A stretch of 64,000 nucleotides of DNA. It comes from a bacterium BRH_c32. Its GTDB lineage: Bacteria > Bacteroidota > Ignavibacteria > Ignavibacteriales > Melioribacteraceae. Below are positions 26,923 through 44,298 of the stretch, piece by piece. A program made the translations under genes and the position numbers. The notes below the pieces were generated by a model. It saw nothing but the letters and a program-made list of their open reading frames with translations, made no database searches and was not told where the DNA came from. The DNA is taken from assembly GCA_001516025.1 (NCBI GenBank), contig LOEU01000017.1, positions 1 through 64,000 on the forward strand. Direction: 5' to 3'. Numbering within the stretch: the first letter of the stretch is position 1; every line of letters starts with the position of its first letter.

Positions 26923-27005
26923 TTTTATTTAAATAAATATTTTAATTTAGTACAACCTTTCTAATAATCGATTAGTCTAACCGAACAGAAGCCGGTGAAG
27001 AGAGA

Positions 27006-27590
27006 ATGAAATTAAACGATAAAGAATTAATACTAAAAGCTCAATCAGGAAATATGGAAGCGTTCGAAGAACTTATTTATCGATATGATAATCAAGTGCT
27101 AAACATCGCTAAGTCATTCCGTAACAATAGCGATGATGCAAAAGATATCTATCAAGAAGTTTTTATTCGTGTTTATAACGGATTAAAAAATTTTCAGTTT
27201 AAAAGTGAATTCTCGACTTGGCTTTTTCGTATTACAACTAATGTTTGTCTGACTTTTGCAGAGAAAAAGAAAAGAAATAATCATGAATCAATTGACGATG
27301 TGGTTACTTATGATGGGGAAGAAATTGAAAAAGTATCGGATTCTATTCCGGGGGATTTAACAACTGATTCGCTTATTAATAAAACAGATTTTTATAAACA
27401 GATAAATAAAGTAATTGATAAACTTCCGGTGCAGCAGAAATTAGCTTTCACTATGAAATATTTTCAAGAACTAAAGATCCGAGAAATTGCCGAAATTATG
27501 AATTGTAATGAAGGAACGGTTAAACGGTATCTCTTCACAGCCGTTACAAAATTGAGAGAACAATTAAAAAATCTCAAACACGAGGTTTAA
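27006..27590 (+). CDS. ECF sigma factor
   Basis: This 194-residue sigma-70 family protein of the extracytoplasmic-function type directs RNA polymerase to a specific regulon. Region 2 spans about 20-90 (RYDNQVLNIAKSFRNNSDDAKDIYQEVFIRVYNGL, then FSTWLFRITTNVCL) and region 4 spans about 135-190 (LPVQQKLAFTMKYFQELKIREIAEIM with NCNEGTVKRYLFTAV as its helix-turn-helix). It is the first gene of a four-gene operon with one-base gaps; the next gene looks like its anti-sigma factor. Such factors usually drive their own operon, so the DUF4097 genes downstream are likely targets. Confidence 0.93.
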   Translation: MKLNDKELILKAQSGNMEAFEELIYRYDNQVLNIAKSFRNNSDDAKDIYQEVFIRVYNGLKNFQFKSEFSTWLFRITTNVCLTFAEKKKRNNHESIDDVVTYDGEEIEKVSDSIPGDLTTDSLINKTDFYKQINKVIDKLPVQQKLAFTMKYFQELKIREIAEIMNCNEGTVKRYLFTAVTKLREQLKNLKHEV

Positions 27591-27591
27591 G

Positions 27592-28557
27592 ATGAAAAAT
27601 GAATTAAAAGAAAAATTATTCCTTTACTCAATAAATGAACTTTCTGAAAAAGAAAGAAAAGAGATAGAAAATCTATTGAGTGAAGACTTAGAATTGAAAA
27701 AAGAATTTGATGAATTAATAAATCTCGGCGAAGCAATAGGTTCTAACAAACCTTCACCGGCTAGTGATGACGAGTTAGCTATTGCCCGTCGAGACTTATT
27801 GCGCTCAATTAGAACTCAAGAAGCAGAGGTATCTTCATTCTCGAGATTCGTTGCTTCACTAAAGGGCGCTTTATTCAATAGATACGGATTCGCTTTCACC
27901 GGAGCAACCACTTTATTTATCGGAATTTTTGTCGGATATATATTCTTCAGTCAACAACCAATAAATAAACAAATATTGACCGACTCTACTTCGATCGATA
28001 TAAACAAATTACAGGAAGAAGGAGATACCGAGATATCCAATATTCGAGTAAATGAATCAACAACAAAACCGGATGAAATCGAGATTCGTTTCGATGCTTT
28101 CAAACCGATCAGTTATAAAGCGAAAAAGAAAGATCCGTTCGTAAAACAGTTATTATCGGAAGCATTACTAAATTCATCAAATCCCGGCGATAGAATAAGA
28201 ACCGTGAATAAGATTTCTACTCAAGTTCAGAGCAAAGGATTTAATGATGATCCGAAAATTAAAGCAGCATTACTAAAGGCATTGAAATCAGACGATAATG
28301 CCGCTGTGAGAAAAGAAGCTCTCTATTCATTGATGCAGTTCCCTTATGATGAAGAGATTAGAGATGGTCTCCTTAATACACTTTCAAATGATAAAAATTC
28401 AGGTCTTCGAGTAGCGGCTATTAATGCTTTAGCTGATATCAAAACTAAGGGCATCTCACTCGATGAAGTGATAAGAAAAACTTTAAATAAAAAAGCCGAT
28501 CAGGACGACAATGATTTTGTTAAGATTCGTTCTGCATCTTTACTAAAGGAGTTATAA
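27592..28557 (+). CDS. Membrane anti-sigma factor with periplasmic HEAT repeats
   Basis: This 321-residue protein starts with a cytoplasmic helical region typical of anti-sigma factors (LFLYSINELSEKERKEIENL, a zinc-less variant), has one membrane span at about 98-120 (GFAFTGATTLFIGIFVGYIF), then an acidic linker and several HEAT repeats (about 205-320: PKIKAALLKALKSDDNAAVR, RKEALYSLMQF and so on). HEAT repeats bind protein or peptide ligands, so the exported part could be the sensor. It follows the sigma gene after one base (TAA-G-ATG). The anti-sigma role is inferred from position and topology. Confidence 0.78.
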   Translation: MKNELKEKLFLYSINELSEKERKEIENLLSEDLELKKEFDELINLGEAIGSNKPSPASDDELAIARRDLLRSIRTQEAEVSSFSRFVASLKGALFNRYGFAFTGATTLFIGIFVGYIFFSQQPINKQILTDSTSIDINKLQEEGDTEISNIRVNESTTKPDEIEIRFDAFKPISYKAKKKDPFVKQLLSEALLNSSNPGDRIRTVNKISTQVQSKGFNDDPKIKAALLKALKSDDNAAVRKEALYSLMQFPYDEEIRDGLLNTLSNDKNSGLRVAAINALADIKTKGISLDEVIRKTLNKKADQDDNDFVKIRSASLLKEL

Positions 28558-28558
28558 A

Positions 28559-29878
28559 ATGAAAAAGCTAATAATCGCATTCGTATTAATACCGTTGTTA
28601 TTACTATTTGCTCAAGATGGTAGCAAACAGCCAAAAACAATGAAGCCCGATAAACCGGAATTAGTCGAAAAATTGAGCAAACTACCAAAAGCGATAAAAC
28701 CACCAAAAGCACCGGTTCCGCCTAGCAAAATCGTTGATGATAATTGGGATTCAGATTCTGACTCCGAGTTTGATTCCGAGGATGGAATACTTAATAAAAC
28801 TTTCACGGTTGGTAAAGGGGGGAAATTAACCGTGAATGTAAGTCCCGGCGAATTGACCATTAAAACATGGGATCAAAATAAGGTAGAAATAAAAGCTGAT
28901 GGATTTGATAAACGCGATATTGAAAATATCGATATTACCCAGAATGGAAACGACATTAAGATTAAATATGAATCGGAATTTGGCTGGGGCGGCGATGGTG
29001 ATTTTATAATTACCGTTCCCGAAGAATATAATCTCGATCTTAGAACTACAAGCGGCGATCTACTAATAAAAGGTAATCTAACCGGATATGCTAAAGCATC
29101 CACTATGGGCGGAGATATTTCAGTTAAGGATATAAAAGGGAATGTTGACTTATCCACTCAAGGCGGCGATATAAGAACAGGAGATCTCGAAGGCACAATA
29201 ATGCTTAATACAATGGGTGGTGATATCCAAACCGGTAAACTTAATGGAAAAGATGCACAGATTTATACAATGGGGGGAGAAATAAATATCAAAAGTTCAT
29301 CTTCCGATATTAAAACCAAGACCTACGGTGGCGATATACAAATTGGAGATGTTGGTGGTAGTGTCGATTTAGTTACTTATGGCGGAAATATTAAGGTTAA
29401 TACTGTCGGCGGAAGCGCTAAATTAGAAACCTATGGCGGAAACCTTTTTCTAAACCGCGCTAATGGAGAAGTGCTTGCCAAAACAAACGGTGGAAATATT
29501 AATCTAAAAAATATTACCGGTTCGGTGGAAGCACGGACGATGGCAGGCGATATCTCTTTAGAACTAAATCCATCCGGAAACAAAAGCAGTGTTTCTACAA
29601 ATACCGGAGAAATTGAATTAATTCTTCCTGCTAATGCTAAAGCGACTGTTCAAGCTACAATTAAAGTAAATGGCTGGTGGAAAAATATGAAAGATGATTA
29701 CAAGATTCATTCTGATTTTGAAGTAACTACCGTTAATAAAGTTGGAAGTGAAGAAGATGAAGAAGAAGAAGGAAATAATAACGAAATTACATCAGTATTC
29801 TTGATTAATGGCGGCGGTACTAAGATATTTCTTAAATCAATTAATTCAGATATTTCAATAAGAAAATCACAAAAATAA
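28559..29878 (+). CDS. DUF4097-type repetitive surface protein (first of two)
   Basis: This 439-residue exported protein has a signal peptide (KKLIIAFVLIPLLLLFAQ), a Pro/Lys-rich linker, an acidic SDSDSEFDSED stretch, and then a long beta-helix-like repeat (about 95-370) in which a strand ending in TMGGDI, TYGGNI or TQGGDI recurs about every 18-20 residues. This matches the DUF4097 putative adhesin family. An acidic run EEDEEEEGNN lies near 400. It follows the anti-sigma gene after one base and precedes a paralog. A structural or adhesive role at the envelope is inferred. Confidence 0.8.
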   Translation: MKKLIIAFVLIPLLLLFAQDGSKQPKTMKPDKPELVEKLSKLPKAIKPPKAPVPPSKIVDDNWDSDSDSEFDSEDGILNKTFTVGKGGKLTVNVSPGELTIKTWDQNKVEIKADGFDKRDIENIDITQNGNDIKIKYESEFGWGGDGDFIITVPEEYNLDLRTTSGDLLIKGNLTGYAKASTMGGDISVKDIKGNVDLSTQGGDIRTGDLEGTIMLNTMGGDIQTGKLNGKDAQIYTMGGEINIKSSSSDIKTKTYGGDIQIGDVGGSVDLVTYGGNIKVNTVGGSAKLETYGGNLFLNRANGEVLAKTNGGNINLKNITGSVEARTMAGDISLELNPSGNKSSVSTNTGEIELILPANAKATVQATIKVNGWWKNMKDDYKIHSDFEVTTVNKVGSEEDEEEEGNNNEITSVFLINGGGTKIFLKSINSDISIRKSQK

Positions 29879-29903
29879 AATGAGCACGGGGGACCTAAGT
29901 AAT

Positions 29904-31064
29904 ATGAAAAAGATTTTATTAATAATTTCGCTCCTTCTTTTAGGGACAATAGTATCAGGTACGCCTATTTTCAAAGTCATAAAAAGCTTTAATAATGGAG
30001 AATTAAAAAAAGAATTTAATTCCAAACCGGGGAACAGTCTCACATTAGATTTAAAGACCGGTGCTTCGATCGAAATTGAATCATGGGATAAGAATGCAGT
30101 TTATTTGCAGATAAAATATTTGAAGAGTAGTGATGAAACTATCGATGTATCATTTGAAGAAACAGAAAACGGAATTGAAGTTTCTTCAAAATATAAAAAC
30201 CGTAAAAATACGGATGGTTCTATCCAAGTAACTGTTCAAGTCCCGAGAAAACAGGATTTGGATCTCTCTACTATGGGAGGTCATGTAAAGATTGATGGAG
30301 TGGATGGAACAATTAAAGGAAGTACGATGGGTGGACATCTTGATTTTTCTAATCTCAAAGGAAATATTAATTTCCAAACTATGGGCGGTCAAATTGATCT
30401 TCGAGATTCTGATTTAGATGGAAAAGTAAAAACTATGGGTGGTCGGGTTAAAGTAACAAACGTAACCGGTGATATTGATGCAAGTTCTATGGGTGGAAAT
30501 GTAATTCAATCGAACGTTAAGGGGCGTTCCGGTAAATCAATCGGTAAAGAGGTAAATATCTCAACTATGGGGGGAGAGATATCTATCGATGAGGCTCCAA
30601 ATGGCGCTAAACTCAAAACTATGGGTGGTTATATCGAGATTAATAAAGCAGGAAAATTTGCAGAAGTAGAAACGATGGGAGGCAATATTAGCATTAAAGA
30701 GATTGATGGCTGGGTAAAAGCTAAAACTATGGGCGGTGATATCGACATAAGATCGACTGGCGATCTGAAACAATCAGGAAATGATATCACTCTTGTTTCT
30801 TTGAGAGGCGATATTAATTTAATTATTCCTAACGATGCTTCCGTTAAATTAGAACTTGAAATCGCATACACAAAAAAATATCGCAGTTCTAAACCGGAAA
30901 TTAATACACCTTTTAATCTGCAAAGCGAAGAATCTAAAGAATGGGATGATTCAAACGGTGATCCACGAAAATATATTAGAGCTACCGGCAATTTCAACGG
31001 TGGTAAAAATTTGATAAAAATAAAGACAATTAACGGCGATATAAAAATTAAGGAATTAAAATAG
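29904..31064 (+). CDS. DUF4097-type repetitive surface protein (second of two)
   Basis: This protein of about 386 residues is a paralog of its upstream neighbour: signal peptide (KKILLIISLLLLGTIVSG), a beta-strand N-terminal part, and about nine repeats containing STMGGH, KTMGGR, SSMGGN or ETMGGN at 18-20-residue spacing. I chose the ATG at 29904, which starts the signal directly and has GGGGGA 10 nt upstream; a longer frame starts at 29880. It ends the sigma/anti-sigma operon and is followed by a strong bidirectional terminator. Two adjacent copies suggest duplication within the operon. Confidence 0.8.
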   Translation: MKKILLIISLLLLGTIVSGTPIFKVIKSFNNGELKKEFNSKPGNSLTLDLKTGASIEIESWDKNAVYLQIKYLKSSDETIDVSFEETENGIEVSSKYKNRKNTDGSIQVTVQVPRKQDLDLSTMGGHVKIDGVDGTIKGSTMGGHLDFSNLKGNINFQTMGGQIDLRDSDLDGKVKTMGGRVKVTNVTGDIDASSMGGNVIQSNVKGRSGKSIGKEVNISTMGGEISIDEAPNGAKLKTMGGYIEINKAGKFAEVETMGGNISIKEIDGWVKAKTMGGDIDIRSTGDLKQSGNDITLVSLRGDINLIIPNDASVKLELEIAYTKKYRSSKPEINTPFNLQSEESKEWDDSNGDPRKYIRATGNFNGGKNLIKIKTINGDIKIKELK

Positions 31065-31130: not shown

Positions 31131-31170
31131 ATCCCGATACATGCGTAGAACATGTATCGGGATTTTTTTT
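31131..31170. terminator. Bidirectional intrinsic terminator
   Basis: A perfect 13-bp stem (ATCCCGATACATG and complement) with a 7-nt loop is followed by eight T on the plus strand and flanked by six A on the left, so it works for both the DUF4097 operon and the convergent PadR gene. Confidence 0.9.
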
Positions 31171-31768
31171 ATATCAGACGCATATCAAATGGGGAATGAG
31201 AATCATTATGTTGATTTAAATTTAACGTTTTAATTAACTCTTTGACAGTTTTAATCTCCGCTTCTATTATATGAAAACGGTGTCTAACCAAAGCAAGAGC
31301 CGCAAAGGAAACCTTATTTCTATCTCTTTCAAAATTTAATAATTGATTCCTAATTTCATACTGATGATTATCCAACCGCTCTAACTTCTTTTTTAGTTTA
31401 TATAAGATTTCTGATTTGCTAAGATTGTTCATCAAAAGAATCCCGATATCAAATTCCGTAGCAATCGAGCTCTCTTCAGTAAGAAAATTTGTAATCGATT
31501 CTTCGAGCTCATATTCTCCTTCTCTTGTAATATTATAAACGGTTCTCTCAGGAAGATTACTTTGTTTCTCTTTCCTCCCCTCAATCAATCCTTTTTTACG
31601 TAAACCGTTTATTACGGCATAGACGGTGGAATCCGCCATTGGTAGCCATTTCTTTGTCTTGAGATTTTCGAGCATCTTTGTTATTTCGTAGGGTCCTCTC
31701 TCTTCTTCAGAGAGTATTCCCAATATTAGAGTGGCTAATTTTGATTGCATATCTCTTACTATTCCCAT
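31169..31768 (-). CDS. PadR-family transcriptional regulator
   Basis: This 199-residue protein has an N-terminal winged helix of the PadR type (about 8-95: LATLILGILSEEERGPYEITKMLE, STVYAVINGLRKKGLIEGRKE, RTVYNITREGEYEL) and a helical C-terminal domain used for dimerisation (about 110-190). PadR proteins are repressors that usually respond to small molecules. The gene faces the DUF4097 operon and is not in an operon itself. The target is unknown. An alternative start is the Met at residue 7, a few codons nearer the domain. Confidence 0.86.
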   Translation of the reverse strand: MGIVRDMQSKLATLILGILSEEERGPYEITKMLENLKTKKWLPMADSTVYAVINGLRKKGLIEGRKEKQSNLPERTVYNITREGEYELEESITNFLTEESSIATEFDIGILLMNNLSKSEILYKLKKKLERLDNHQYEIRNQLLNFERDRNKVSFAALALVRHRFHIIEAEIKTVKELIKTLNLNQHNDSHSPFDMRLI

Positions 31769-31806: not shown

Positions 31807-32928
31807 TTATGAAGTCAATAATTCTTGCATTATTTTTTTATCGCTTACTACCTCTTCAAACGATTTAAAAATAAATTCGACATTCTCGGAGATCGATTCG
31901 TAGCTTAATTCTAGTGATTCTTTCTGCCTCGGATTGATCACTACTATTTTTTGATCCGGCTTTATAACTTTTTTGAAGAGTGCCTTAATATGAATATCAG
32001 AACTGGACATAGAATAACCGATAAAGATTATTTTCTTAGCTATCATTATTTCGCGTGATGCTTCGCTGGATAGTTGGCTAACTATCGGGTGCTGCAAACT
32101 CTTTAAATGTGACGGTGGAACAATTAGAGTTTGAAATTCTGTTCCGTCTAATGGACACCTATATTCATACTCCATCTTTTCAGGATAGGTGTAGCCGAGC
32201 AGTTTTCCTTTATTCAAATCAATTTTTCGATCCCATGGTGTAAGGAGCATCTGATTGCAGCAATTACAATATTTCCAGTTTAGACTCCCATGAAGTTTTA
32301 TAATCTTAAATGGCGATGGCTCTTCTCCATCCTTAACGCATAAAGGTTTTCTTGGATTAACCCAAAAATTAAATTCTTTTAGCTCAGGCAGATCCTCATA
32401 GTTCATTAGTGGAATGCAATAATCGATATAACCATGCTTTTTGAAAAGAAAATTAAACGACTGCTCCAATAAATCATCATAATTTAGAGTTAGAATGGAG
32501 ATATTTTTATTATTCTCAATTATAGAATTCCAAAAAAGATTATAATAGGTGCTTGATTTATCGGTTTGAATATTAACTACATAATGAATAAGCTTTATTA
32601 AATATTCTTTTAAAGTAACAATTTTTTCTAGGGGATATTTAGAGCTAAGACTTTCATTATGCTGTATAAAATAATCAAAAAAACCGAAAACAGCTTCTAA
32701 TGCAGGATATGTGTTGGATGCGGAATTATACTTGAAATTTTCTTGAATAAATTCTTTAAATATTTTCCCTATTTCGGAGTTATCGATCTCATCGATTCCA
32801 CCGGAGAGAATCATCGGAAGAAGCGCCCTTTGAAGCGGAACACCATCGGCGAAGGAAGTACCTGCGCCAAGGACAAATAATACATCTCTTTGGTTTGGAT
32901 AATTTAAATATCGCTCTGAACTATTCAA
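31807..32928 (-). CDS. SIR2-like domain protein (predicted NAD-binding/NADase)
   Basis: This 373-residue protein has a SIR2-like fold: the nucleotide-binding GAGTSFADGVPLQ (residues 22-34), TLNYDDLLE (about 152), the catalytic-type KLHGSLNW near 210, a cysteine cluster YCNCCNQ with a later RCPLDGTEF that could hold zinc, and IFIGYSMSSSDIHIKALF (about 300), the usual late Rossmann motif. Proteins of this kind cleave NAD in phage defence, but here there is no partner gene such as Thoeris thsB, HerA or Argonaute. It starts one base after the rsmG stop, within the mnmG-rsmG operon. Function in this setting is open. Confidence 0.82.
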   Translation of the reverse strand: MNSSERYLNYPNQRDVLFVLGAGTSFADGVPLQRALLPMILSGGIDEIDNSEIGKIFKEFIQENFKYNSASNTYPALEAVFGFFDYFIQHNESLSSKYPLEKIVTLKEYLIKLIHYVVNIQTDKSSTYYNLFWNSIIENNKNISILTLNYDDLLEQSFNFLFKKHGYIDYCIPLMNYEDLPELKEFNFWVNPRKPLCVKDGEEPSPFKIIKLHGSLNWKYCNCCNQMLLTPWDRKIDLNKGKLLGYTYPEKMEYEYRCPLDGTEFQTLIVPPSHLKSLQHPIVSQLSSEASREIMIAKKIIFIGYSMSSSDIHIKALFKKVIKPDQKIVVINPRQKESLELSYESISENVEFIFKSFEEVVSDKKIMQELLTS

Positions 32929-42743: not shown

Positions 42744-43790
42744 ATGAAGAGGTTAAAAGTTATTATTATTTTCGCAATTAGTCTTATAGCTGTCTCAACG
42801 GTCTCGGCACAGGATTTACTTAATACATATTTCAATGGAAATAAGGATAGTTTAGTCGCGGCGGCTACTAATCTAATCAATATGCCAAATCCCACTTTCA
42901 GTCAATTCAAATCTGATCAAATTAATACAACTGCATCATCTGACAACGAACCAACAAACAATGCTACCGATTATTATTTCTCGATAAGAGATAATCATAA
43001 AATATTTGCTTACAAATTTACCAATAAATCACCAAACACTATTATTCTCATTCACGGAGTAAAAAGTAGTGCTATTAATTACCAAAAAACGGCCCAAATG
43101 TTGCAACAAGCAACGCAAGCCGAAGTTTATGCTTTAGATTTGAGGGGACATGGAAAATCGGAAGGCAAACCGGGCGATGTGGACTATATCAATCAATATG
43201 CTGATGACTTAGCTAATATTGTTAGCTCTATTCGTAAGAATAAACCGAATGGAAAAATTATTATTGCAGGTCATTCAATGGGTGGTGGTATAGCTCTACG
43301 ATACTCAATGGAAAATTACAATGATAAAGTTGATGGCTTTTTACTTTTTGCTCCTTTGCTTGGAAATAATTCGCCGGCATTTCAAAAAGAAGAAGCTTCC
43401 AATAATGACAGCACTGAAGCATTTATGAAAATCCATATTGCTCGAATTATTGGATTGAAAATGTTAAATGAAATCAATAGACATGATAATGATAGTTTGC
43501 CTGTTTTATTTTTCAATTTACCGATAGGAACACCACTAAGAGAATATTCTTACCGAGCAAATGCAAGTATGGCACCGGATAATTATATTGATGGCTTAAA
43601 AAGTGTAAAAGTTCCACTGCTTGTTTTAGTGGGCGATAAAGATGAAGCTTTTGTTGCAGAAGAACAACAAAAAGCAGTTTTGGAAAATAGCAAAGGAGAA
43701 GTAAAAATTATTGAAGGGGCAACACACAACGGACTAAGACTTAATCAAAAAGCTTTTCAATTAATAACTAAATGGTTTTCAAAACTTTAA
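42744..43790 (+). CDS. Exported alpha/beta hydrolase (lysophospholipase/monoglyceride lipase type)
   Basis: This protein of about 348 residues has a signal peptide (LKVIIIFAISLIAVSTVSAQ) and an alpha/beta-hydrolase domain of the Hydrolase_4 type. Visible are the oxyanion strand TIILIHGVKSSAINY, LDLRGHGKSEGKPG, the nucleophile elbow IIAGHSMGGGIAL, the late acid VLVGDKDEAF and catalytic His in EGATHNGLR. The ATG at 42744 was chosen because it starts the signal and has AGGA 9 nt upstream; the longer frame starts at a TTG. Its stop overlaps the sigma-factor start by one base (TAATG). It probably cleaves lipid or carboxyl esters in the periplasm. Confidence 0.85.
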   Translation: MKRLKVIIIFAISLIAVSTVSAQDLLNTYFNGNKDSLVAAATNLINMPNPTFSQFKSDQINTTASSDNEPTNNATDYYFSIRDNHKIFAYKFTNKSPNTIILIHGVKSSAINYQKTAQMLQQATQAEVYALDLRGHGKSEGKPGDVDYINQYADDLANIVSSIRKNKPNGKIIIAGHSMGGGIALRYSMENYNDKVDGFLLFAPLLGNNSPAFQKEEASNNDSTEAFMKIHIARIIGLKMLNEINRHDNDSLPVLFFNLPIGTPLREYSYRANASMAPDNYIDGLKSVKVPLLVLVGDKDEAFVAEEQQKAVLENSKGEVKIIEGATHNGLRLNQKAFQLITKWFSKL

Positions 43791-44298
43791 TGCAAATAAA
43801 AGAACAAAACCAAAACTTTCAAGAACTCATTAAGCAACATAAAGGCATATTAATTAAAGTTGCCAGAATATATTGCCAAGACGAAGAAGACAGGCAAGAC
43901 CTTATTCAAGAAATTATGATACAAATTTGGAAATCATTACATAAGTACAATAGTAAGTTCAAAATTTCTACTTGGTTGTATCGAATTTCTATAAATGTTG
44001 CAATCTCTTTTTATAGAAAAAATACTGTCAGAAAAAAAATAACGTTCCTTTTAACGAACAAATTTCACACATTCAAAATGATGATACGAATGAAAAACGA
44101 GAACAATTAAATTTGTTAGAACAGTTTATTAGCGAACTCAAAGAATTTGATAAAGCATTGATGTTGCTCTATTTGGAAGAAAAAAGCCACTCTGAAATTG
44201 CTGATATTTTGGGTATTTCGGTAGGCAATGTTGGAACAAAAGTAGGACGTATTAAAGAGAAAATAAAGTACCGTTTTTCACAACTAAACAAAGAATAA
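43790..44298 (+). pseudogene. ECF sigma factor split by a frameshift in an A8 run
   Basis: Two adjacent frames together make one ECF sigma factor. The first (from ATG 43790) holds region 2 (LIKVARIYCQDEEDRQDLIQ, FKISTWLYRISINVAISFYR) and stops at 44110; the second holds the linker and region 4 (LLYLEEKSHSEIADILGISVG, then NVGTKVGRIKEKIKYRF). The frame changes at eight A (44032-44039): after the run the other frame reads NVPFNEQISHIQNDDTNEKREQLN, which is a normal inter-region linker. One more A would restore one protein of about 170 residues. This may be a sequencing error, a true mutation, slippage-based phase variation or programmed -1 slippage. Confidence 0.72.

Follow-up and report, generated by a model that had tools for sequence, protein, structure and literature searches.

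The locus at 27006-31064 of the window (the 64-kb stretch of DNA analysed here) raises the question of what is sensed, and what is controlled, by a sigma factor encoded together with a HEAT-repeat protein and two DUF4097 proteins, Toastrack A and Toastrack B. Its four open reading frames all lie on the + strand: the sigma factor gene (gene 1, 27006-27590, 194 aa), the HEAT protein gene (gene 2, 27592-28557, 321 aa) and the genes for Toastrack A (gene 3, 28559-29878, 439 aa) and Toastrack B (gene 4, 29880-31064, 394 aa). The preliminary description had read these as a four-gene sigma/anti-sigma operon, and the open reading frames, domain matches and conserved order bear this out. It had also placed one-base gaps between all four genes, which is correct for genes 1-2 and genes 2-3. 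However, the one-base gap before gene 4 holds for the first ATG, and the signal peptide of Toastrack B begins at Met9 (29904) instead. Since the gap at this position is also mostly ~8-21 bp in orthologous loci, Toastrack B probably starts at 29904, leaving 25 bp behind Toastrack A.

The operon ends at a bidirectional intrinsic terminator (31131-31163, active in the prediction on both strands, with a 13-14 pair stem and a T run on either side), which it has in common with a convergent gene for a PadR-type regulator (31172-31768, - strand). In other systems, Toastracks are found in company with PadR genes (PMC11237479). We nevertheless rejected this gene as a member of the system, because its adjacency to the operon is not conserved in relatives. 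Between the PadR gene and rsmG/mnmG lies a gene on the - strand (31807-32928) for a SIR2-like protein, with matches to SIR2_2 and to the PADLOC SIR2 and Aga_SIR2 models (E 3e-12); it resembles anti-phage defence proteins.

Gene 1 encodes, by its domain content, a sigma factor of the ECF type. The product matches TIGR02937 at 115.9 bits (cut-off 42.9) and both Sigma70_r2 and Sigma70_r4_2 above cut-off, so that this short protein has sigma-70 regions 2 and 4 only. The window holds a second ECF-type sigma sequence (43654-44268, + strand), which looks broken, since the full-length match crosses 11 stop codons and the open frame is a mere 112 aa with region 2 only.

The product of gene 2 matches HEAT_2 over residues 226-316 (57.8 bits, cut-off 27.7). 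Its AlphaFold2 model (mean pLDDT 88.9, 61 sequences) has an N-terminal four-helix domain at residues 2-78 (helices 2-13, 19-31, 33-51 and 59-78), followed by a long helix (82-119) that holds the only hydrophobic stretch found by hydropathy, with the membrane helix at about 99-119. The flexible linker that follows leads to a three-strand element (149-178) and then to four HEAT repeats (182-319), built from eight helices. The net charge is +3 before the hydrophobic stretch and -1 after it, which suggests that the N-terminus lies in the cytoplasm and the HEAT domain outside. Among the anti-sigma domain models of Pfam and NCBIfam, none reached its cut-off against gene 2 (16.8 bits vs. 100 for NF052375). 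The Hx3Cx2C zinc anti-sigma motif is kept in 51 of 76 gene 2 homologues; it is absent from gene 2 of the window and from most close relatives, and it is optional in class I anti-sigmas. On account of the predicted fold, the presence of this motif in homologues and the invariable position of the gene behind that of the sigma factor, the gene 2 product is best read as a putative single-pass anti-sigma factor of the class I type that scores below the cut-offs of the Pfam and NCBIfam anti-sigma models. In a Foldseek search, the best match to gene 2 had an E of 0.0035, and all matches were either generic HEAT/ARM solenoids or designed repeats.

Both remaining genes match DUF4097 (PF13349, cut-off 22.9), Toastrack A at 74.2 bits and Toastrack B at 31.4 bits. 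The AlphaFold2 model of Toastrack A (pLDDT 87.5) is a single-stranded beta-helix, and Foldseek matched it to the Toastrack crystal structures 4QRK and 4OPW, the structures named for the Toastrack fold in PMC11237479. Each protein has a hydrophobic signal at its N-terminus, and from these signal peptides both are predicted to be exported. Two further features of the preliminary description are upheld: the exported HEAT part of the anti-sigma factor, on which the HEAT_2 match and the predicted fold and topology agree, and the beta-helix repeat proteins, for which there is DUF4097 in both genes and the beta-helix model for Toastrack A. Its suggestion of a recent expansion of the DUF4097 pair had to be abandoned, because in a tree of 56 Toastracks the A and B copies form two old, separate clades (support 100/99), each of which spans several families, with the copy B clade also taking in a class-level relative. 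As judged from this tree, the duplication is ancient; many genomes have kept only one copy.

How constant this gene set is was asked in two surveys, some records of which are common to both. Gene 2 is encoded in 17 of 38 genomes, counting the source genome. The sigma gene is directly upstream in all 16 other loci (in one as a fragment only), at least one Toastrack is present in 15 of the 15 that have DNA downstream, and the genes flanking the operon differ among the 16. An independent search in which the sigma factor was the only query fetched 80 loci, mostly from Melioribacteraceae and other Ignavibacteria. The neighbourhood survey that had been proposed for this locus rules out a lack of co-occurrence in related genomes: the HEAT anti-sigma gene directly follows the sigma gene in 75 of 75 testable loci, and a Toastrack is encoded in 66 of the 66 with enough DNA. 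A second Toastrack (17/55) and a DUF5916 protein (18/55) are less constant members. A search of the genome collection by gene 2 alone gave no matches, owing to the variable sequence of this gene. Across 297 genomes of the phylum, several classes have full-length gene 2 homologues and others have shorter versions of 250-280 aa, the latter usually with two Toastracks in their neighbourhoods; by ORF calls, the order sigma factor, HEAT protein, Toastrack is seen in 17 of 20 distant neighbourhoods. In one genome (L111:3414-9624) the entire sigma-HEAT-Toastrack-Toastrack operon is present twice, as adjacent, divergently transcribed copies. At six Melioribacter-type loci (L130, L131, L132, L136, L139 and L150) Toastrack B is followed immediately by a further ECF gene (187-222 aa) in convergent orientation and by a small gene (78-80 aa) whose product resembles zinc-type anti-sigmas.

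A predicted ECF self-promoter, ACAACCTTT-N14-GTCTAA, occupies 26952-26980 (+ strand), with 25 bp between its end and the start of the sigma gene. Nearly every close relative has ACAACCTTT-N13/14-GTCTAA upstream of its orthologous sigma gene. Of the 79 loci for which DNA upstream was available, 58 have AACCNTT-N13/14-GTCTAA (spacer of 14 in 30 loci, of 13 in 28), compared with 0 in reversed sequence and a mean of 0.025 in shuffled sequence for the same 79 loci. More distant genomes, read by eye, retain TGTAACCTT and have a changed second element. A scan for promoters of the sigma-70 type gave no excess over shuffles. Conservation of the motif predicts that the sigma gene promoter is autoregulated.

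We also searched for other genes that may be under the same control. The relaxed motif AACYWTT-N13/14-GTCTAA has 11 sites in the source genome, vs. 3 for the backwards pattern. Eight of the 11 are positioned 24-71 bp before start codons, all of genes for exported or membrane proteins; for one of them, the start was moved to the Met of the signal peptide. With a promoter-distance chance fraction of 0.027, P is about 4e-11. The motif was relaxed after the site before a third DUF4097 gene (C37) had been seen, so that this site and that of the operon itself are not independent; without the two, six of nine sites are at promoter distance (P about 3e-8). The candidate targets are this operon, through its own promoter, the third DUF4097 gene, and genes for a DUF2807 lipoprotein (C21), DUF5916 (C36), an HlyD-ABC-permease (FtsX) (C30), an outer-membrane receptor (C28), a META-domain protein (C4) and an Lcl_C protein (C31). 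Some of them may belong to other factors, as the source genome encodes ~13 ECF-type factors, and ECF operons other than this one lie next to two of the eight sites. A gene for a DegP-like protease lies 136 bp behind a site that is inside an upstream gene, and was left out of the target count; DegP-like proteases are classical envelope-stress targets.

Scanning the 38 genomes for AACCWTT produced a high background, and therefore only the contrast between carriers and non-carriers of gene 2 was used. Motif and control sites numbered 65:34 in carriers and 34:44 in non-carriers (p = 0.004), a difference that came largely from own-operon sites (p = 0.06 once those were removed). In relatives, the strict motif stands before genes for DUF2807, DUF4097, DUF5916 and FtsX/MacB permease proteins and, in one relative, before a PspC-LiaF pair. 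Two genomes (G003 and G006) have strict sites before envelope genes and do not have gene 2, so a like motif may be read by another factor. Sites within open reading frames of L068 and L077 were taken as chance. In other families, the DUF5916 gene immediately follows the Toastrack gene, and it therefore seems to have kept its promoter where it moved. Four loci (L071, L072, L074 and L224) share a conserved cluster of an ECF gene, a gene for a small helical protein of ~190 aa, one or more DUF4252 genes and then DUF5916, with the motif directly in front of DUF5916. The presence of the motif within this ECF-DUF4252 cluster suggests that two sigma systems meet at DUF5916.

Could the sigma factor control its own operon only, the remaining sites being due to chance or read by other ECF factors? 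The exact motif has its single occurrence in the source genome at 26952-26980, strict matches in carriers are mostly own-operon sites, and ECF genes are found near two of the relaxed sites. However, the clustering of relaxed sites at promoter distance tells against such a closed switch, as does the recurrence of these sites before DUF4097, DUF2807, DUF5916 and FtsX-type permease genes in several genomes, and we regard it as possible but unlikely.

Taken together, the conserved gene order and self-promoter, the binding domain that faces outwards and the candidate regulon of exported proteins are best explained by an envelope-stress switch. We put at roughly 0.75 the probability that it is an autoregulated ECF sigma/membrane anti-sigma system that watches the cell envelope, with the Toastracks as its main output. 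The operon is probably a small, largely undescribed system sensing cell envelope damage, given that the same genes, with a control switch of their own, turn up in dozens of related bacteria. At rest, as fold and position would have it, the cytoplasmic domain of the gene 2 product would hold the sigma factor. The periplasmic HEAT domain would read a signal, upon which the sigma factor would be freed, probably by regulated proteolysis as for other membrane-bound anti-sigmas. The freed sigma factor would then read the ACAACCTTT-N13/14-GTCTAA promoter, increasing expression of its own operon and of a small number of envelope genes, and the exported Toastracks may serve as periplasmic scaffolds, comparable to those of Lia/PSP responses.

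A version with feedback, in which the HEAT domain binds the Toastracks and their level or recruitment sets sigma activity, much as RseB acts on RseA, is a tentative idea that we hold to be unlikely. The operon partnership is constant, with no Toastrack missing from the 66 loci, and the HEAT domain and the Toastracks are both predicted to lie outside the inner membrane. Both HEAT solenoids and the sheets of Toastracks offer surfaces of a kind typical for binding. However, HEAT and Toastrack A gave no sign of coevolution beyond what the ECF and anti-sigma domain account for: given these, the partial correlation of their distances is -0.06, which is a weak test of pairing. Doubtful, too, and a little bolder, is the proposal of a phylum-wide Bacteroidota equivalent of Lia/PSP, with exported Toastracks that would be both output and ligands of the periplasmic HEAT anti-sigma factor. 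That the Toastracks are cell-surface adhesins, in a module reading contact or a surface polymer and not damage, is quite improbable, since the names behind it (the crystal structures were deposited as putative adhesins, and the DUF2807 model is called auto-transporter adhesin head) are untested annotation, and the candidate regulon includes transport and META-domain proteins and, in one relative, PspC-LiaF.

The envelope-stress switch favoured here resembles known systems in part. Like RpoE/RseA and SigW/RsiW, it has a sigma gene followed by that of a single-pass protein with a predicted four-helix N-terminal domain, Hx3Cx2C in most homologues and, by conservation, an autoregulatory promoter of the AAC/GTC type. 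It differs from them in that the periplasmic part is a HEAT solenoid. Sensory domains of anti-sigma factors are conserved within groups and different between groups, and among Bacteroidetes ECFs only 6% are neighboured by class I anti-sigma domains; the main text of that study makes no mention of HEAT repeats (PMC7406223). With Lia/PSP systems it shares Toastrack proteins (DUF4097, DUF2807) as candidate output and, in one relative, the strict motif before a PspC-LiaF pair. However, control would be exerted by an ECF/anti-sigma pair and not by LiaRS, PspF or PadR-HAAS, and the Toastracks have signal peptides, whereas an intracellular domain was inferred for those described previously (PMC11237479). 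The operon contains neither PspA nor PspC/LiaF with a two-component system of the LiaRS type, and the likeness to Lia/PSP is thus one of working only.

The study that defined the Toastrack mentions some contexts with an operonically linked sigma factor, and ECF does not occur in its text (PMC11237479). The searchable literature, outside which lie the main ECF classification paper and the supplements of papers, yielded no published description of the operon, and this context may already be tabulated in those sources. Neither DUF4097 with HEAT repeat, nor HEAT repeat with anti-sigma factor, sigma-70 and Bacteroid-, was found together in the literature searched. Toastrack proteins are common but mostly unexplained. 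The conserved unit ties an anti-sigma factor of the class I type to Toastracks, with a defined promoter and a short list of targets, and offers a direct way to learn both the role of Toastracks and the signal to which the HEAT anti-sigma factor responds.
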